Made by a program: the position numbers and the translations under genes
Notes under the pieces: generated by a model
Database searches by the model: none
The model's input: only the letters and a program-made list of their open reading frames with translations
Told to the model about the DNA's origin: nothing
In this document: positions 141 to 50,358 of the stretch, one piece after another
Numbering within the stretch: position 1 is the stretch's first letter
Layout: every line of letters starts with the position of its first letter
Assembly: GCA_034717495.1 (NCBI GenBank)
Contig: JAYELL010000103.1
Coordinates: 14,019 to 64,776, forward strand
DNA length: 50,758 nucleotides
DNA from: Chloroflexota bacterium
GTDB lineage: Bacteria > Chloroflexota > Anaerolineae > JAAEKA01
Reading direction: 5' to 3'

Positions 141-411
141 TTCCTGACCTGGACATGCCAGAGGAACGCTGATTGCGCAGACCTCCGGCGCAGAGATCGC
201 TGATCTTTTCTGATATCTGATCAGCGTTTACCCTTCGGCTGCGCTCAGGACAGGTCGGCGGTTATCTGCGGTTATGATTTTTCTCTGATTCCTCCGCAGA
301 TTCTCTCTGATCTTGTTTGGATTGATCTGCGTCCACCCTTCGGCTACGCTCAGGACACGTTTGCGTTTATCAGCGTCATACTTCGGCTACGCTCAGCACA
401 GGTCTGCGGTT
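141..411. repeat. Dispersed intergenic repeat, copy R1
   Basis: This fills most of the gap between the GH20 start and the kinase stop. It is near-identical over long stretches to 46928-47226 and shares blocks with 30200-30358 and 38418-38552. It contains the palindromic word CCTTCGGCTGCGCTCAGGAC (about 232-252) and variants at 337-359 and 381-402. It also has an inverted repeat CGCTGATC (198-205) / GATCAGCG (219-226). The words look REP-like and a RAYT transposase is encoded in the window. No gene was seen within it. Confidence 0.8.
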
Positions 412-29401: not shown

Positions 29402-30193
29402 TCAGCGCATCTCCTGACCACCGGTGACGTTGATGGCCTGTCCCGTCATGTAACTCGATTGCTCGGAAGCCAGAAACACCAGAACGTTGCCCACATCCTC
29501 GTAGGTGCAACCTCGCTTCATGGGCACCTGGTCGATGTATTTCTGGCGCACCTCTTCCTCGCTGATGCCCCAGTTGCGGGCATATTGGCTGTAGAGGGAA
29601 TCAACCCAAAGGGGTGAATCAAGCAGGTTGCCGGGACAGATGGCATTGGCGCGCACACCATGCTCGGCAAGTTCCAGGCCCAGGCTCTGTGTCAGGCCGA
29701 TCCCGCCGAACTTGGTCGCGGCGTACGCGGAGTTTTTATAGCTGCCCTTTTTGCCAGATTTGGAGTTAATCTGGATGATCACCCCACTTTTACGAGGGAT
29801 CATCACCCGGGCTGCGTGCTTCGAGCAGAGGAAGTAACCGAACAGATTGACGTTCATAACAAAACGCCATTTTTCGGCCGGAAACTTTTCGATTGCCTCG
29901 GCGATCAACACCCCAGCGTTGGAGACCATGATGTCCAGTCGCCCAAAGGTCTCAACCGTTCGGTCAACCATGGCGGCTACGGCTTCTTCATCGGTCACGT
30001 CAACCTTGACGGCCATGGTGCGCCGACCGGTCCCGGCAGCGATAGCCCCGGCGGTTGCTTCTGCGCCTTCGTGGTTCAGATCGGCCACGACCACATGCGC
30101 TCCCTCGGTCGCCAGGCGCTGGGCAAGGGAGGCACCCAGGCCCTGGGCGCTGCCTGTGACGATGGCGATCTTGTCCTCAAGTGTACGATTCAT
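29402..30193 (-). CDS. SDR oxidoreductase, sorbitol-6-phosphate dehydrogenase-like
   Basis: A 263-aa classical short-chain dehydrogenase: TGSAQGLG cofactor loop at residues 14-21, VSNAG near residue 89, a catalytic Ser region INSKSGKKGS near residue 142, and YAATK near residue 157 with the catalytic Tyr and Lys. The overall pattern is that of SrlD-type sorbitol-6-phosphate 2-dehydrogenases. In this locus it may interconvert a ketose phosphate and polyol phosphate, or oxidise a deoxysugar. AGGAGG lies 7 bases before the ATG at 30193, and that site is the edge of the dispersed repeat at 30200-30358. Confidence 0.88.
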   Translation of the reverse strand: MNRTLEDKIAIVTGSAQGLGASLAQRLATEGAHVVVADLNHEGAEATAGAIAAGTGRRTMAVKVDVTDEEAVAAMVDRTVETFGRLDIMVSNAGVLIAEAIEKFPAEKWRFVMNVNLFGYFLCSKHAARVMIPRKSGVIIQINSKSGKKGSYKNSAYAATKFGGIGLTQSLGLELAEHGVRANAICPGNLLDSPLWVDSLYSQYARNWGISEEEVRQKYIDQVPMKRGCTYEDVGNVLVFLASEQSSYMTGQAINVTGGQEMR

Positions 30194-30199
30194 TTAGAT

Positions 30200-30358
30200 T
30201 CCTCCTGACCTGGTGTGCAGAGGACCGCTGATTTACGCAGGCCTCCGGCGCAGATTTTCGCTGATCTTTTCTTGGATTGATCTGCGGCCACCCTTCGGCT
30301 ACGCTCAGGACACGTCTGCGTTCATCTTGCGGTTATGTTTTTTTCTTTTCACCGCTGA
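30200..30358. repeat. Dispersed leader repeat, copy R2
   Basis: It begins TCCTCCTGACCTGG at the Shine-Dalgarno of the SDR gene and extends back to the stop of the preceding dehydrogenase. It shares with the 141 and 46928 copies the GCCTCCGGCGCAGA block, GGATTGATCTGCGGCCACCC and the palindromic word CCCTTCGGCTACGCTCAGGA (30291-30310). It is shorter than those copies. Confidence 0.8.
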
Positions 30359-32074
30359 TCATGGCAGCATCTGGCGCAGGAATTCTTCCTCAGCTTCCAC
30401 CGTCCAGATCCGGCCATCCTTCAACGCCGCGTACACGGAGGGCAGTTTGTCTTTCAACTCAGGCACTGGCGTCAGCGGGAATTCCTTGATCTGCGGGTAG
30501 ATGACCACCTTGCCGGGGAAGACCTGATCCTTGACCGCCTGCAGGCCATCCTTGGCAGCGCTGAGTGAACCGATGGCGGCTACCGAACGATTGGGAGACA
30601 ACACACCCGACTCGGCCTGATCCAGCATCAGACGCAGGTCGTCGATGGAGGATGCCGAATGGCCGATGATGCGAACATCCCGCATGAAGATATCGCTCAA
30701 CTCAAGCGATGCTTCTGTGCCACGAGCCACGCCCGCAAAGATGTTCATGACGCCCTCATCCGCCAGGTAGTTGGCGGCATCGGAAATTACAAAGGGAACC
30801 GGGGCCATCACGACGATATCATCGAAACCCTGTTCCTTGAAGGGGGCAATGCCCTCTGCATAGGCTTCCTTTTCCATTGGATTGAGACAGATGAACTCGA
30901 TGCCCATTTCCTCGGCCTCGCCGCGGAAGCTCTCCTCCAGATCGGCGAGCCGCACGTCGCTGACATCGGTGCAGAGGATGACGCCGGGTCCACCATCAAC
31001 CTGAATGGCCCGCTGCACGTGCATGCGTCCCATGGGACCACCGGCGCCGACGAACCATGCCCGTCCTCCTGGCCGCAGCGACGATCTCACTGGCATATCG
31101 CTGTAGGCAGAGGCGATGTCGGGGTCTTTGCCGCCCACGTAGAGCCAGCGGTTGTAGTGAACCCGCCCGATGTCCACATTCACCGGACGATCCAGGGCCC
31201 GGTCCATCACCAATGCGACGGTCCCGAAGTCAGCCAGATGGGGACTGACCGTTTCGATCAGTTCGGCATCACCGCCAAGCAAGATGATGTCATCCACCTG
31301 AGCGACCGGTGGATCGCTGAGATCGCTCACTTCTGTCACTGTAACGTCCAGCTCTTCCGCCCGGGCCTTGACCCACTCAGCCAGGTAGTCGGGCACGTTG
31401 GTCAGCAACACCCGGGTCGGATGGGACCACTGCTCGAAGCCGGCGCTCAACGAATAGGTGTGCTGCGGATTGGCATGGGACCCGATGATCCAGAGCACGC
31501 CATCCGGTTTGATGCTGGTGCGATAGGTCAATCCGTAGGCGGCAGTCACGCAAGCCCATGGCTCTGTAAGGGCACTTTCAGCATAGCCGGTGGTGTCCTT
31601 GACGGGAAGCAGATAGTTGCCTTCGTCGCCGTTGAGAATGCGCTGGTCGATCACCGTGTATTCCGACAGGCCACCCTGGATCTCGTAGCCATAGGCGTAA
31701 CCCACGCCATCCACGAAGATATCAGCCTGGATGGTGAAGCGGTCACCTATCTCGTACTCATCTGCCAGGTTCTCGCCCACGCCGACCACGGTCATGGCGA
31801 TCTCATGGCCCAACACCACCGGATCAGACGCCATATCCCGGTAGATGCGAGGATGTTCCTCGCCCAGGCGGATCACCTTGATGTCGGAAAAACAAAGCCC
31901 GGTAGCATCGTGGCGGACCAACAACTCGTCCGGCCCATGCCGGGGCATGGGGACTTCGATAACCTGGTCGTGATCGCCCAGGTTTTCCAGGCCAGCGCCA
32001 TACAAGGGCCACACCTGGTTTTTTTGGGCCAACGGTGTCTCGGCAGTCTTAAATTCATTCAGTTTGTCAGTCAT
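30359..32074 (-). CDS. Large zinc-binding dehydrogenase (MDR family, about 571 aa)
   Basis: The protein resembles MDR sugar-phosphate dehydrogenases of the sorbose-1-phosphate reductase type but is about 150-200 residues longer. The catalytic zinc Cys lies in GLCFSDIKVI near residue 60 and GHE near residue 90; the four-cysteine structural zinc lobe is missing. There are two nucleotide-fold-like stretches: GVLWIIGSHANPQHTYSLSA near residue 200 and GGRAWFVGAGGPMGRMHVQ near residue 350, the latter the real NAD loop. I chose the ATG at 32074 (AAGGA upstream), which overlaps the end of a 47-codon gene. It may act on the product of the aldolase or kinase branch; the substrate is unknown. Confidence 0.82.
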   Translation of the reverse strand: MTDKLNEFKTAETPLAQKNQVWPLYGAGLENLGDHDQVIEVPMPRHGPDELLVRHDATGLCFSDIKVIRLGEEHPRIYRDMASDPVVLGHEIAMTVVGVGENLADEYEIGDRFTIQADIFVDGVGYAYGYEIQGGLSEYTVIDQRILNGDEGNYLLPVKDTTGYAESALTEPWACVTAAYGLTYRTSIKPDGVLWIIGSHANPQHTYSLSAGFEQWSHPTRVLLTNVPDYLAEWVKARAEELDVTVTEVSDLSDPPVAQVDDIILLGGDAELIETVSPHLADFGTVALVMDRALDRPVNVDIGRVHYNRWLYVGGKDPDIASAYSDMPVRSSLRPGGRAWFVGAGGPMGRMHVQRAIQVDGGPGVILCTDVSDVRLADLEESFRGEAEEMGIEFICLNPMEKEAYAEGIAPFKEQGFDDIVVMAPVPFVISDAANYLADEGVMNIFAGVARGTEASLELSDIFMRDVRIIGHSASSIDDLRLMLDQAESGVLSPNRSVAAIGSLSAAKDGLQAVKDQVFPGKVVIYPQIKEFPLTPVPELKDKLPSVYAALKDGRIWTVEAEEEFLRQMLP

Positions 32075-32210
32075 ATGGTTGTATTCCTTCTTTTCGATAG
32101 GCGATTCCCAGGGGTTCCTGTTCCTTCGCCTCTTGTGCATGGCGGATGAAGACATCGGCAATGTCCACCCAGTATCGTCCGACCTCGGTGTGATCCATCC
32201 AGTCTCTCAT
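32067..32210 (-). CDS. Small 47-residue protein, translationally coupled, unknown function
   Basis: A short gene reading MRDWMDHTEVGRYWVDIADV at its start and ending GIQPYD. Its ATG (32210-32208) overlaps the TGA of the PHP-domain gene as ATGA, and its own TGA (32069-32067) lies 8 bases into the downstream dehydrogenase gene. Both overlaps are typical of real genes in a compact operon. The peptide is acidic/basic mixed and amphipathic, with no membrane segment or signal. I do not recognise it. It could be a small subunit or stabilising partner of the dehydrogenase or of the PHP protein. Confidence 0.65.
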   Translation of the reverse strand: MRDWMDHTEVGRYWVDIADVFIRHAQEAKEQEPLGIAYRKEGIQPYD

Positions 32211-37307: not shown

Positions 37308-38414
37308 TCAGCTGTAACTTCCGTGTTTCATCACTGCCGCAATAAACGCTTCAACATTCTCCGGCGAAACATCGGACTGCACAATATGAGCCGGTGCGCA
37401 CATGTAGCCGCCACCATCGCCCAAGACCCTGATCTTTTCAGCCACGTCGGCCTCGATCTCCGCCGCCGTGCCGTTGGGCAATAAATGTTGTTGATCGATG
37501 GCGCCCCAGAAAGAGAGCCGGTCGCCCAGTCCTGACTTCAGATCGTGTGCTTCGTGCCCGGGCACGTTTGGCTGCACCGGATTAAACACCTCCAGGCCGA
37601 TTTCGACAAGATCGTCGAGGATCGGAGCCACCGCGCCATCGGTGTGATACATGATCAACAGATCGGGGTTGCGGGCCTTGAACTCCTGGAAGAGCTCCGC
37701 GTAACGAGGCTTGAAAACACGGCGCCACATTCTCGGCGATATCAACATGCCATTCTGGGCGCCGAAATCATCGCCAAACCAGATGCCATCCACACCCAGG
37801 TCCACCAGGCTTTTTCCGATACCGATGCTGAATTCCTTAACCCGATCGATCAGCGCCTCGATATAGGGTTCACCCAATGCCATGTCCATCATAAACTTCT
37901 CCAGGCCCACCATGTGCCATGACATCTCGAACATGGTCAGCTCCAGGTCGCCGATGATGAAGTAATCATCCCGGTATTTTTCGGTGTAGAGCCTGGCATC
38001 GTCGAAGCGCCCATCGGCCAGTGGGTCGGGGAAGGGAAAGCTCTCTACCTCGGCGACCGAAGAGACATCCTTCAGCGGCGCCTCGATTGTCTCCATGTAG
38101 AGGGGACCCTGTCGCATCACCATGCCGAATTCGTTGATGATACAACCGTCATCGGTCGTCGGGTGGCTGTAGCCGCGGGGCAGGCTTCCGCCGACCACCA
38201 CGCAGTCACTGCCCATGGCTGTACGCAGTTCGTTGGCCGAAATGCGGTAGGTTAGATCCTCGAAATAGGAGGTGGTATAGTGGATCGGAATCCCGTAGGT
38301 CTCACCGAAACTGTCGGTCAACTGCCGGCACAGATCGAACTGCAAAGGGACGCGGTCCGGGATGCCGGTGCGTTTCAAGGCCGTCAAGACGCGATCACGC
38401 GGTTTCATACTCAT
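37308..38414 (-). CDS. URO-D superfamily protein, putative corrinoid methyltransferase (paralogue 1)
   Basis: A 368-aa URO-D superfamily member. By eye most positions match the 367-aa protein at 45821-46924; the copy at 9733 is more distant. It starts MSMKPRDRVLTALKRTGIPD; a GDDFGAQNGMLISPRMWR segment lies near residue 217, the presumed metal site YHTDGAV near residue 257 and YMCAPAHI near residue 338. MtaA/MtbA/CmuA-type methyltransferases use HxC and a later Cys for zinc; here HxD replaces HxC. Its position between metV and rhaM suggests methyl transfer from a methylated substrate. GGAGA lies 6 bases before the ATG. Confidence 0.82.
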   Translation of the reverse strand: MSMKPRDRVLTALKRTGIPDRVPLQFDLCRQLTDSFGETYGIPIHYTTSYFEDLTYRISANELRTAMGSDCVVVGGSLPRGYSHPTTDDGCIINEFGMVMRQGPLYMETIEAPLKDVSSVAEVESFPFPDPLADGRFDDARLYTEKYRDDYFIIGDLELTMFEMSWHMVGLEKFMMDMALGEPYIEALIDRVKEFSIGIGKSLVDLGVDGIWFGDDFGAQNGMLISPRMWRRVFKPRYAELFQEFKARNPDLLIMYHTDGAVAPILDDLVEIGLEVFNPVQPNVPGHEAHDLKSGLGDRLSFWGAIDQQHLLPNGTAAEIEADVAEKIRVLGDGGGYMCAPAHIVQSDVSPENVEAFIAAVMKHGSYS

Positions 38415-38417
38415 TGA

Positions 38418-38552
38418 TTTTCTCCAGACCCGGGCAGGCCAGAACTCAAATTAGGGCTTCGTCCCTCGACACGCTTGGGACACGGCTGCGGTTGTGATTT
38501 TTTCCTTTCACCGCAGATTTACGCAGACCTGCGGCGCAGAAGGTGTTAAGGA
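38418..38552. repeat. Dispersed leader repeat, copy R3 (diverged)
   Basis: Beginning at the URO-D Shine-Dalgarno, TTTCTCCAGACCCGGGCAGG parallels the TTCTCCTGACCTGGACAAGC start of the 46928 copy. It continues through a CCCTCGACACGCTTGGGACACG block and CCGCAGATTTACGCAGACCT, ending at the rhaM stop. It is more degenerate than the other copies. Confidence 0.6.
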
Positions 38553-38553
38553 C

Positions 38554-38877
38554 TCAGTCGAGATGAAAAACCTCGGTCAGTTCCAGCATGTTCTCATCGG
38601 CATGAGAGCCGCCAAATCCCTCAAAATAGGGTGCCATGAAATCCTGCCACCTGGCGTTAATTTCCTCCCTCGCCATGCCATCGAGAGCGGCCTGAAGGCC
38701 TTCGGGCGTCTCACAATACCCGAATAGCAGACCATCATCGCGCAAGAACAAGGAGTAGTTGTGCCAACCCGTTCGCTGCAAGGCGTCCCGCATCTCCGGC
38801 CAGACCGCCTCATGGTGTTCCTTGTACTGCTCGATCATATCCTCCTTGACCTTCAGCACAAAACCGACGCGTTTCAT
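38554..38877 (-). CDS. rhaM: L-rhamnose mutarotase
   Basis: A 107-aa YiiL/RhaM-family protein that interconverts the anomers of L-rhamnose, presenting the form used by the isomerase. It has MKRVGFVLKVKEDMIEQYKE at the start, the HHEAVWPEM motif near residue 22, NYSLFLRDDGLLFGY near residue 42 and RWQDFM near residue 78, all at family positions. GAGGAG lies about 9 bases before the ATG at 38877; an in-frame extension upstream is unlikely. It follows the rhaS-like gene and precedes the URO-D gene, matching the rha gene sets of other bacteria where the mutarotase accompanies the RhaSTPQ importer. Confidence 0.92.
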   Translation of the reverse strand: MKRVGFVLKVKEDMIEQYKEHHEAVWPEMRDALQRTGWHNYSLFLRDDGLLFGYCETPEGLQAALDGMAREEINARWQDFMAPYFEGFGGSHADENMLELTEVFHLD

Positions 38878-39046: not shown

Positions 39047-41188
39047 TTACTTGGCTTCGGCCTCGACATTGTCGGCCGTGTAGACGGAGAAGGGTCCCAT
39101 CAGCACCCGCAGACCGGCGTCCCGGGTCGGGTCCTTCTCGATGGTGTAGGTGCCCATGCGGCCAGCTTCGAAGCGCTCACCCACCTTGCCCTCGATGGCA
39201 CCTGTCGCCAGAAGATAGCTGGTGTAGTAGGTCAGGTATCCCAGATCGATGAAGCTCCAGAGTGCAAACTCCGGTGCACAGCCGTTCAGGGTATAGCTCA
39301 CCATCTCGGCCGGCAAGCCCAGTCCGCTCACCTTGACATCGTCGCACAGCCCCTCATCCTGCATTGCCTTGGCGGCGGAAGCGATGCCCACCGTCGTCGG
39401 CGCCATGATCAGGCCCATGTCGGGATATTTGTCCACCAGCGCCAACGCCTGGTTGTAGCTGTCTTCCGACTGGTCGTTGCCGTAGACAATGTCCACCAAC
39501 TCCAGGCTGGCATAGGTGTCGTCGGTGGCCAGCACATCCTCCAAAGCGGCGATCCAGGCGTTCTGGTTGGCGGCATCGGGGGAAGCGGAGAGCACAGCGA
39601 ACTTGCCGCCGTCATCGCCCAGGATGCTCAGGGCCATGTCGGCCATCACCTTGCCGGTCTCGTCGAAGTCCACCTGGGCGATGAACACCTGCTCACCCTC
39701 GGCCGACGGGATCGGCGAGTCCCAGGTCACCACCGTGGTGCCTGCTTCCAGCGCTGCCTGGGCCGCCGGGGCGATCTGGTCGCCTGCGTTGTTGGAGAGC
39801 ATGATTGCATCCTGCCCCTGAGTGGTGGCAGTGGTCACGATCTCGATCTGGCCGGCGACGCTGTTCTCAGGTGTCGGTCCCAGGAACTGAAGCTCGCCTG
39901 TATTGCCCAACTCCTTGTGAGCTTCCTGGGCGCCATTGTTGGCCTGGTCGAAGACCAGAATACCCAGGAATTTGGGCAGTAGCACCATGTTGACTTCCTG
40001 CCCAGGCGTGGCCATCACGGGTCCGCTGGCGCCGACCTCCTGAGGACCAGCCTCGGCCTCGACATTGTCGGCCGTGTAGACGGAGAAGGGTCCCATCAGC
40101 ACCCGAAGACCGGCGTCCCGGGTCGGGTCCTTCTCGATGGTGTAGGTGCCCATACGACCGGCGCTGAAGGTTTCCCCTTCCGCACCCTCGATGGCACCTG
40201 TCGCCAGAAGATAGCTGGTGTAGTAGGTCAGGTATCCCAGATCGATGAAGCTCCAGAGTGCAAACTCCGGTGCACAGCCGTTCAGGGTGTAGCTCACCAT
40301 CTCGGCCGGCAAGCCCAGTCCGCTCACCTTGACATCGTCGCACAGCCCCTCATCCTGCATTGCCTTGGCGGCGGAAGCGATGCCCACCGTCGTCGGCGCC
40401 ATGATCAGGCCCATGTCGGGATATTTGTCCACCAGCGCCAACGCCTGGTTGTAGCTGTCTTCCGACTGGTCGTTGCCGTAGACAATGTCCACCAACTCCA
40501 GGCTGGCATAGGTGTCGTCGGTGGCCAGCACATCCTCCAAAGCGGCGATCCAGGCGTTCTGGTTGGCGGCATCGGGGGAAGCGGAGAGCACAGCGAACTT
40601 GCCGCCGTCATCGCCCAGGATGCTCAGGGCCATGTCGGCCATCACCTTGCCGGTCTCGTCGAAGTCCACCTGGGCGATGAACACCTGCTCACCCTCGGCC
40701 GACGGGATCGGCGAGTCCCAGGTCACCACCGTGGTGCCTGCTTCCAGCGCTGCCTGGGCCGCCGGAGCGATCTGGTCGCCTGCGTTGTTGGAGAGCATGA
40801 TTGCATCCTGCCCCTGAGTGGTGGCAGTAGTCACGATCTCGATCTGGCCGGCGACACTGTTCTCAGGCGTCGGTCCCAGGAACTGGAGCTCGCCTGTATT
40901 GCCCAACTCCTTGTGAGCTTCCTGGGCGCCATCATTGGCCTGGTCGAAGACCAGAATACCCAGGAATTTGGGCAGTAGCACCATGTTGACCGTCTCACCA
41001 GGAGTGGCTTCGACGACCCCTTCGGATACCGCGGGTTTCGTTTCGGGCTCGGCCGGTGTCTCCGGCTGGGTTTCGGCAGGAGCGACTGGCTCCGGTTCCG
41101 GGACTGGTGCGACCTGCCCTCCACAAGCGGCAAGCAACATGCTCAAAATAATCAGTAGCGCAACCATGCGCCAGGCATACGTCTTCAT
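39047..41188 (-). CDS. rhaS: Rhamnose-type ABC binding protein, internally duplicated (two RhaS domains)
   Basis: A 713-aa lipoprotein: signal peptide with Cys22 in LAACGGQ, then a Pro/Glu-rich linker to about residue 70. Two almost identical periplasmic-binding domains of roughly 315 residues follow, joined by a short linker ([16 protein letters not shown]). Each contains [58 protein letters not shown] and [11 protein letters not shown], the pattern of RhaS L-rhamnose-binding proteins. Single-domain RhaS is about 330-350 aa. The DNA period is 996 bp, in frame. I chose the ATG at 41188, 9 bases after AAGGAGG, rather than the one at 41197 touching it. Followed by rhaM. Confidence 0.9.
39057..39994 (-). 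repeat. Tandem gene duplication, downstream copy (996-bp period)
   Basis: It matches 40053-40990 at a constant 996-bp offset (checked at three points), with only scattered differences. The exception is about 39159-39195, where the sequence encoding [12 protein letters not shown] differs at nearly half of its positions from the other copy ([12 protein letters not shown]). Confidence 0.9.
40053..40990 (-). repeat. Tandem gene duplication, upstream copy (996-bp period)
   Basis: Partner of 39057-39994. It encodes the N-terminal RhaS domain, preceded by the signal peptide and linker. Near-identity outside one patch implies recent duplication or continuing gene conversion. Confidence 0.9.
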
Positions 41189-41229
41189 ACTTGACATCCT
41201 CCTTATTGGAATGTACGAACTGCTTTGAA

Positions 41230-45820: not shown

Positions 45821-46924
45821 CTACTGATACACACCGTGCTTTTTTACGGCGGCGATGAAAGCCTCGACGTTCTCCATCGAGGTGTCGGCCTGCACAATGT
45901 GAGCCGGTGCGCACATATAGCCGCCACCCTTTCCCAGAACCCTTATCTTCTCGGCCACATCGGTTTCGATATCTTCGGGGACGCCGTTTGGCAGCAAATG
46001 TTGCTGGTCAATCGCGCCCCAGAAAGAGAGACTATCACCGTACTTGCCCTTAAGATCCTCCGGTTCGTGGCCCGGCACATTGGGCTGAACCGGGTTGAAG
46101 ACTTCCAGGCCAACTTCAATCCAATCTCCCAGGATGGGGGCAACTGCACCATCGCAATGCTGCATAATAACCACGTCCGGGTTGATTGCCCTCAGTTCGG
46201 CGTAGATTTCGCGATAGGATTCTTTGAAGTATTTCCGCCACATTTTGGGTGAGATCAGCATCCCGCTTTGCCCGCCGAAATCGTCGCCGGCCCAAACTCC
46301 ATCCACCCCCATCGAGACCAGTTTATTGCCGATAGCCAGCGAGAAATCCTTGGTCTTTTGGATCAGTGGCTCTATGTAAGGTTTCTCCAGCGCCATATCG
46401 ATCAACAATTTCTCCATGCCGACTGACAGATGCATCATGTCGAACGTGGTCAATTCCATATCACCGATGATGAAGTACTCGTCCTTGTACTTCTCGATGT
46501 ACATTTTTGCGTCGTCGAACCGGCCTTCTGCCAGCGGATCAGGAAACTCGAATTCCTCCACGTCCGCTGGGGTCTCAAAATGGGACATAGGGGGAGGGGA
46601 AACGACTTCCACATAGATGGGCCCCTGGCGCAACTTCATGTTGAACTCATTGATGAGATAGCCATCTTCATCCACAGGATGCTCGTAACCCCGGGGCAGG
46701 CTGGCGCCGACCATCACACAGTCGCTGCCCATCGCCACGCGAAGTTCGTTGGCCGATAAGCGATATGTCACGTCTTCGTAGTAGGCGGCGGTATAGTGAA
46801 CGGGGATATCATATTTCTCACCGAATTTCTCCAGCAATGAGCGGCACAGGTCGAATTGGAGCGGCACCCGATCGGAGGTCCCGGTTCGGCGCAGGGCTGT
46901 CAGTACGCGTTCTCTTGAGTTCAT
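45821..46924 (-). CDS. URO-D superfamily protein, putative corrinoid methyltransferase (paralogue 2)
   Basis: A 367-aa near-twin of 37308-38414. It starts MNSRERVLTALRRTGTSDRV and aligns without evident gaps over its length. The metal-site motif is MQHCDGAVAPIL near residue 255 (His-Cys-Asp), where paralogue 1 has His-Thr-Asp, and YMCAPAHIVQ is kept near residue 338. The AGGAG 8 bases before the ATG at 46924 is the edge of the dispersed repeat 46928-47226. Located between the RhaE-type fragment and the DeoR promoter. The extra Cys could mean a different metal geometry or substrate. Confidence 0.82.
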   Translation of the reverse strand: MNSRERVLTALRRTGTSDRVPLQFDLCRSLLEKFGEKYDIPVHYTAAYYEDVTYRLSANELRVAMGSDCVMVGASLPRGYEHPVDEDGYLINEFNMKLRQGPIYVEVVSPPPMSHFETPADVEEFEFPDPLAEGRFDDAKMYIEKYKDEYFIIGDMELTTFDMMHLSVGMEKLLIDMALEKPYIEPLIQKTKDFSLAIGNKLVSMGVDGVWAGDDFGGQSGMLISPKMWRKYFKESYREIYAELRAINPDVVIMQHCDGAVAPILGDWIEVGLEVFNPVQPNVPGHEPEDLKGKYGDSLSFWGAIDQQHLLPNGVPEDIETDVAEKIRVLGKGGGYMCAPAHIVQADTSMENVEAFIAAVKKHGVYQ

Positions 46925-46927
46925 TGC

Positions 46928-47226
46928 TAATTCTCCTGACCTGGACAAGCCAGAGGAACGCTGATTACGCAGACCTCCGGCGCAGATCATCGCTGATCTT
47001 TTCTGATATCTGATCAGCGTTTATCTGCGTTGATCCTTCGGCTGCGCTCAGGACAGGTCTGCGGTTATGATTTTTCTCTGATTTCTCCGCAGATTCTCTC
47101 TGATCTTGTTTGGATTGATCTGCGTCCACCCTTCGGCTACGCTCAGGACACGTCTGCGTCATCTGCGGTTATGTTATGTTCTTTTCACCGCTGATTTACG
47201 CAGACCTTCGGCGCAGAGGTCGCTGA
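46928..47226. repeat. Dispersed leader repeat, copy R4
   Basis: A long copy, near-identical in blocks to 141-411. It carries CGCTGATC (46991-46998)/GATCAGCG (47012-47019), TCTGCGG (47058-47064)/CCGCAGA (47087-47093) and two CCTTCGGC..GCTCAGGAC words (47035-47054, 47130-47149). It starts at the Shine-Dalgarno of the second URO-D gene and fills most of the 361-bp gap; nothing else is seen in it. Confidence 0.85.
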
Positions 47227-50085: not shown

Positions 50086-50164
50086 GGTTTTTCTCCTTGG
50101 TTGAGATATGGGAGTTGGTTACACGAGATTTCATCGGATTTGAGTAATTCATACCATACAGTGG

Positions 50165-50317
50165 AGAAGTAGACAAGTACACAAGTAGACAAGTAGGAAG
50201 TAGACAAGTAGGAAGTAGACAAGTAGACAAGTACACAAGTAGGAAGTAGACAAGTAAATAAGTAGACAAGTAGACAAGTACACAAGTAGGAAGTAGACAA
50301 GTAGGAAGTAGACAAGT
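50165..50317. repeat. Mixed 7/8-bp tandem array (GTAGACAA / GTACACAA / GTAGGAA)
   Basis: About nineteen units in a row: GTAGACAA (most frequent), GTACACAA, GTAGGAA and one GTAAATAA, ending at GTTAGCCG. It lies between the kinase stop and the lsrF-like start. The end of the kinase gene has ACAAGTAGACAG on the minus strand, complementary to the minus-strand array units (CTTGTCTAC), so hairpins between them are possible. It is transcribed but has no plausible protein. Confidence 0.9.
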
Positions 50318-50358
50318 TAGCCGATGCGCCACGGCCTGGCTCTTCCTTGGTTCCTCGT

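Follow-up and report, generated by a model that had tools for sequence, protein, structure and literature searches.

Repeat copies and genes in the window

The window is the whole stretch of 50,758 nucleotides analyzed here (G000:C103:14019-64776), and it belongs to a 5.0-Mb Anaerolineae (Chloroflexota) assembly, G000, which is divided into 120 contigs and is 95.6% complete. It carries four copies of a dispersed repeat, three of which lie next to the starts of leftward genes. The copies were scored with R1, a 57-nt sequence-only model of the repeat edge, and the features that concern us are as follows.

142..411, minus strand: copy with an intact core edge, away from any start codon (R1 66.2 bits at 142-195)
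29402..30193, minus strand: SDR gene (PF00106, Pfam), start 9-10 nt from the element edge
30204..30358, minus strand: copy between an alcohol dehydrogenase-like ORF (30359-32161) and the SDR gene (R1 48.1 bits at 30204-30257; core loop altered)
37308..38414, minus strand: URO-D 1 gene (PF01208, Pfam)
38424..38552, minus strand: eroded copy between a gene ending near 38558 and URO-D 1 (R1: body 27.5 bits, edge 8.1 bits with E=0.12; Shine-Dalgarno GGAG at the edge)
45821..46924, minus strand: URO-D 2 gene (PF01208, Pfam), start corrected in agreement with the L165 orthologue
46933..46937, minus strand: URO-D 2 Shine-Dalgarno AGGAG, common to the element end and the native sequence (from the sequence; L165 homology starts at AGGAGAAT)
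46934..47226, minus strand: copy of the probable non-autonomous element upstream of URO-D 2 (R1 72.5 bits at 46934-46988)

The copies are confirmed as genuine and stand far above chance expectation. The 21-mer CCTTCGGCTRCGCTCAGGACA has six matches in the window and none in 100 shuffles, the copy at 46928-47226 gives 58 BLAST matches within its own genome, and R1 matches the whole genome 146 times, about 65 of these matches being full edges. The outward edge consensus is CYGG-CTTGT-CCRG-GTYAGGA with a sharp boundary: conservation runs up to ..CCAGGTYAGGA and is absent in the flank beyond, and in the minus-strand reading of the copies it ends with the terminus AATCAGCGTTCCTCTGGCTTGTCCAGGTYAGG(A/G). 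A subset of short copies keeps just the final ~20 nt, preceded by unrelated sequence. In the 46.9-kb copy, the core end GGCTTGTCCAGGTCAGGA at 46934-46951 points outward (leftward) into the URO-D 2 gene. This copy is 87% identical over query positions 7-138 to a complete element in the same genome (C2:49590-49792), and the copy at 142..411 is 89% identical to it across 225 nt. The URO-D 1 copy combines a body match with a degenerate edge; thus, it is regarded as an eroded member of the family.

The edge, Shine-Dalgarno (SD) sequence and start codon are arranged as GGTCAGGAG-GAATCTAA-ATG for SDR, GGTCTGGAG-AAAATCA-ATG for URO-D 1 and GGTCAGGAG-AATTAGCA-ATG for URO-D 2. A sequence-only reading of the window had held that the edge supplies or abuts the SD of these three genes, and this overlap is seen in each layout, the URO-D 1 copy being the degenerate one; its remark that a fourth copy (141-411) does not lie at a start is also borne out. 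A longer URO-D 2 ORF starting at 46990, inside the repeat, was rejected in favor of the start at 46924, as in the L165 orthologue. Regarding other repeats, positions 50160-50325 are occupied by 7-8 nt units in tandem (AAGTAGACAAGTAGGA...), and a 300-nt direct repeat, 94% identical between 39054-39353 and 40050-40349, lies within the Peripla_BP_4 ORF at 39047-41197; its counterpart in L165 is a pair of tandem stretches within a single gene region.

Comparison with a repeat-free orthologue

Among named sequences, the closest to the URO-D 2 protein come almost entirely from Anaerolineae MAGs, and that of CSMAG_674 (L165) is 85% identical. L165 is colinear with positions 46.9 to 39.4 kb of the window, and its URO-D 2 orthologue lacks the repeat. 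We compared the sequences upstream of the two genes, CTATCAAGGAGAATCAAATG in L165 and CCAGGTCAGGAGAATTAGCAATG in the window, which are alignable only from AGGAGAAT on. Since this point is the native SD, the element must abut or share it. At C2:49792, elsewhere in the window's genome, an SD-like CAGGAAAG lies beyond the far end of the element, and the SD adjoining the ATG is TTAGGA, which belongs to the element itself.

In L165 (3109-4580), the homologue of the gene at window positions 38558-38877 immediately precedes the URO-D 2 orthologue, but in the window this gene is found upstream of URO-D 1. Repeats are present at both of these sites (38558-38877 and 45821-46937), so they may mark a rearrangement or duplication.

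Two ends of the element

The core GGTTCYGGCTTGTCCRGGTYAGG is present, with a patchy distribution, in 68 of the 396 genomes of the class, and the reversed control pattern gives no match; a slightly looser pattern finds up to 102 copies per genome (G148). The two variable positions of the core stem are paired as T-A in 85 cases, C-G in 45, T-G in 10 and otherwise in 8. This covariation indicates that the CYGG/CCRG hairpin, or a dyad symmetry of the DNA, is maintained. Many cores have a second, likewise conserved end upstream, (A)GTACCTTAnCAGTnAAATTCTTGC-loop-GCAAGAAAATT, and the sequence between the two ends is replaceable and often palindromic. In the window's genome the second end reads (AG)TACCTT..GAGTCAGATTCTTGC-loop-GCAAGA, and in most copies AG or TAG precedes it. 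In the sampled part of this genome, some two dozen copies keep both ends, which match those of the G277 element described below (for example C2:49590-49792, C25:10274 and C57:24712). The window copies retain the core end only, and the second-end motif is absent near the copy at 46934..47226; thus, they are assigned by their common core end and by the body that they share with complete copies. The ends are not inverted repeats of each other, a CCTAACC/GGTTAGG pairing being confined to the shortest G148 copies. No target duplication is seen among the copies, whose ends and targets are located approximately, short of single-base precision.

Further observations concern the surroundings of the ends. 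At three of the 26 second ends (C38:93315, C57:24712 and C51:44506 in G000), the reading frame upstream terminates no more than one base from the end, twice with TAG and once with TAA, so the second end may supply a stop codon and complement the SD at the other end. G148 (L241, L249 and L257) contains complete elements of ~83 nt, GGGCCTAACC...GGTTAGG, some of them in head-to-tail tandem, whose internal hairpin covaries (CAC/GTG, CAG/CTG, CCC/GGG). A second shared repeat, TAAGGCGGCTTGTCAGCTGTNTTTGCGCAAGAT..AACCCGGCTAACCC, follows eight G000 copies (C1:239932, C45:11468, C20:32700, C99:8565, C13:89284, C31:10826, C6:20668 and C60:53115). A search for empty sites via this repeat (TAAGGCGGCTTGTCAG...) found none, since its strong matches all lie behind a core end.

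A coding form of the element

In G277, seven copies are identical over ~1675 nt (~1.67 kb) up to the core, and their flanks are unrelated. The G277 element is bounded by TAGTGCCTAAACAATGAGATTCTTGCACACAAAACAAGAATATT as its second end and by CCTATTTGGTTCCGGCTTGTCCGGGTTAGG as its core end, from which its only ORF, of 510 aa, is directed inward; on their core side, the flanks of the seven copies have no SD-like sequence in common. The layout of both ends plus ORF recurs in G248 and in G011, whose protein is 70% identical to that of G277. This layout is also seen on the Paraburkholderia phytofirmans plasmid pOLGA1, whose homologue is 49% identical to the G011 protein, with CCGG-CTCGT-CCGG-CTTAGG at the corresponding place, and more distant homologues are found on Rhodococcus, Caballeronia and Mycobacterium plasmids. 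In public annotation, the homologues on plasmids are entered as 'hypothetical protein' or 'ArsR family transcriptional regulator'. Core and ORF tend to occur together: the core is present in 15 of the 21 ORF-bearing genomes versus 53 of the 375 others (P=2e-8). A search of the 95.6% complete G000 assembly with a 506-aa query at E 1e-10 gave no coding copy, and both the protein and the core are absent from viral contigs.

The C-terminus of the protein resembles a winged helix, the only part matched in PDB profile searches, and the first ~420 residues have no match in Pfam, NCBIfam, PHROGs or PDB. The invariant residues of the family include KxYxK...LRxET. A kinship with Rep_trans/HUH proteins, prompted by the KxYxK...RxE motif, was rejected, as hhalign gave a probability of 0.3% against Rep_trans members with small alignments. 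From its position between the ends of identical multi-copy elements, the protein is presumably a transposase. The repeats, which share these ends, can thus be understood as non-autonomous derivatives of an insertion sequence, in keeping with the earlier suggestion that they are mobile. This insertion sequence is apparently undescribed so far; our literature search found no description of it.

Placement relative to start codons

The positions of the copies were analyzed in 1.33 Mb of G000, in stretches that were picked for holding copies and thus are not a random genome sample, with the null taken from the same stretches. Genes were called with a home-made codon-context model in which the choice of start ignores the SD sequence. 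In 20 of 84 intergenic copies the edge lies 0-20 nt upstream of a same-strand start, compared with 4.0 expected from a random intergenic position and strand (P=2e-9), a preference of about fivefold. Considering just the copies that face a same-strand gene, 20 of 58 are within 0-20 nt of its start versus 8.2% expected (P=1.6e-8). The distances from edge to start are mostly 7-13 nt, i.e. the usual SD spacing. In other genomes, an ATG-initiated ORF begins 3-18 nt past the core in 26 of 123 distinct copies, compared with 5 and 7 in more distant windows of equal size. The start-codon preference is therefore real and limited to about a quarter of the copies, the other three-quarters lying away from any start. 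The sequence-only reading had placed the repeat at ribosome-binding sites and had named a lack of preference for starts as the mark of neutral REP clusters; the start-adjacent peak, since it also appears in other genomes, is at odds with such neutrality.

Regarding the terminus itself, AGGA is found in 13 of the 20 start-adjacent copies and in 18 of the 64 others (P=0.007). The second end lies near a start in three of 26 copies, each time beside an SD-like flank, and does not differ significantly from the core end in this respect (P=0.27). Thus, a tolerance conferred by the SD and a choice of target are inseparable here.

Discussion

We consider it likely that the repeats derive from an insertion sequence as its non-autonomous, MITE-like copies, and that their SD-like core end makes insertions next to start codons tolerable. 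The autonomous form would be ~1.67 kb long, with two hairpin-bearing ends and one putative transposase of ~510 aa, which may move the short copies in trans. A non-autonomous copy would insert near an SD, and the AGG(A) of its core end, working as an SD, would replace or regenerate the one at the site. Since the core end finishes in this SD-like sequence, a start-adjacent copy could restore the SD, translation would survive and the copy would be kept under selection. Translation of the gene behind a start-adjacent copy is apparently not blocked; we infer both the transposition and the translational effects of the repeat from sequence.

The start proximity could instead reflect the landing site, if insertion prefers a purine-rich, SD-like (AG-type) target and the native SD simply stays beside the element. 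We give this explanation slightly less than an even chance. It agrees with the AG or TAG before most second ends, with the L165 homology that starts exactly at the native SD and with the three second ends that also lie near starts beside SD-like flanks. However, just about a quarter of the copies are at starts, the excess of AGGA in start-adjacent copies suggests that the end itself is under selection, and the seven identical, presumably recent G277 copies share no SD-like flank on their core side. An improbable explanation is that the repeat has been recruited as a structured 5' UTR or riboswitch-like leader, controlling downstream translation through its terminal hairpin and stem-loops. That hairpin covaries and is followed immediately on its 3' side by the SD, but it is the sole conserved structure of the edge and may be needed by a transposon end anyway. 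The CGCTGATC/GATCAGCG stem pointed out earlier is present, although in the variable body, and the body folds better than shuffles in one of the three leaders, that of URO-D 2 (z=-2.8), with z=-0.8 and -0.1 for the other two. The downstream genes are diverse and unrelated, the sequence between the ends is replaceable, most copies lie away from starts and Rfam has no match for the repeat. The earlier proposal of a structured 5' UTR coordinating these genes is therefore not upheld.

Small intergenic hairpins in high copy number, in a genome with three Y1_Tnp genes, also recall REP sequences of the ordinary kind, which a Y1 (RAYT-type) transposase would spread into neutral positions. We regard this origin as very improbable, because none of 28 Y1 loci in ten core-bearing genomes has both ends (L222 has one weak core-like match and lacks the second end), G248 has 47 copies yet no Y1 match, the ends flank an unrelated 510-aa ORF and the positions are non-random. 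The GTTAGG end and the CCTAAC...GGTTAGG pairing further resemble the boxes of integron-type attC sites, and the shortest G148 copies (GCCTAACC...GGTTAGG) have an internal hairpin and are partly in tandem. Nevertheless, an attC identity is hardly credible, as the copies are single and dispersed, with ordinary metabolic genes as neighbors, and do not form cassette arrays, the same ends bound a coding mobile element without an integrase match, and the longer copies and those of the window's genome are unpaired at their ends.

Non-autonomous derivatives of an insertion sequence thus remain our preferred reading, and the repeats can be placed among known systems. Like bacterial MITEs, they are short, non-coding and multi-copy, with a replaceable body and the ends of a coding element. 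Unlike classical MITEs, they have no terminal inverted repeats: their ends bear hairpins, are not mutual inverted repeats and show no target duplication, and one of them coincides with an SD. The coding partner that a MITE would have in the same genome was not found in the G000 assembly but occurs in other genomes. The IS200/IS605 and REP/RAYT (Y1) elements (for TnpAREP and REP, see PMC8266576) have subterminal hairpins, neither terminal inverted repeats nor target duplication, and abundant short derivatives. The present element resembles them in all of these features as far as seen; it differs in that its ~510-aa protein has a winged helix at the C-terminus and gives no Y1 match, and in that no Y1 gene lies between its ends. 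In IStrons, a self-splicing intron renders the mobile element harmless to the host gene (PMC4227781); here the element would likewise carry something that spares the host gene, but in the form of an SD at its end and not by splicing. The pneumococcal BOX, RUP and SPRITE are also small interspersed repeats and can join transcripts and reading frames, and in the study concerned the ORFs made by BOX lacked good SD candidates (PMC3049150), unlike the present repeat, whose end coincides with an SD.

More tentatively, and with doubt prevailing, the element may represent an undescribed transposon family with a putative transposase that, apart from its winged helix, matches no PDB entry, in which the TAG end closes the upstream frame and the SD end opens the downstream one, allowing a silent entry into operons. 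The natural start-adjacent copies permit a direct test of selection versus targeting. If our interpretation is right, abundant intergenic repeats of environmental bacteria would be tied to a mobile element that has no Pfam or NCBIfam family. The family of its putative transposase, which is scattered among Anaerolineae and has plasmid-borne homologues in Paraburkholderia, Caballeronia, Rhodococcus and Mycobacterium, would then offer a new enzyme for characterization. Mobile DNA that brings a ribosome-binding site at its end would then have a simple route into compact operons without silencing them.
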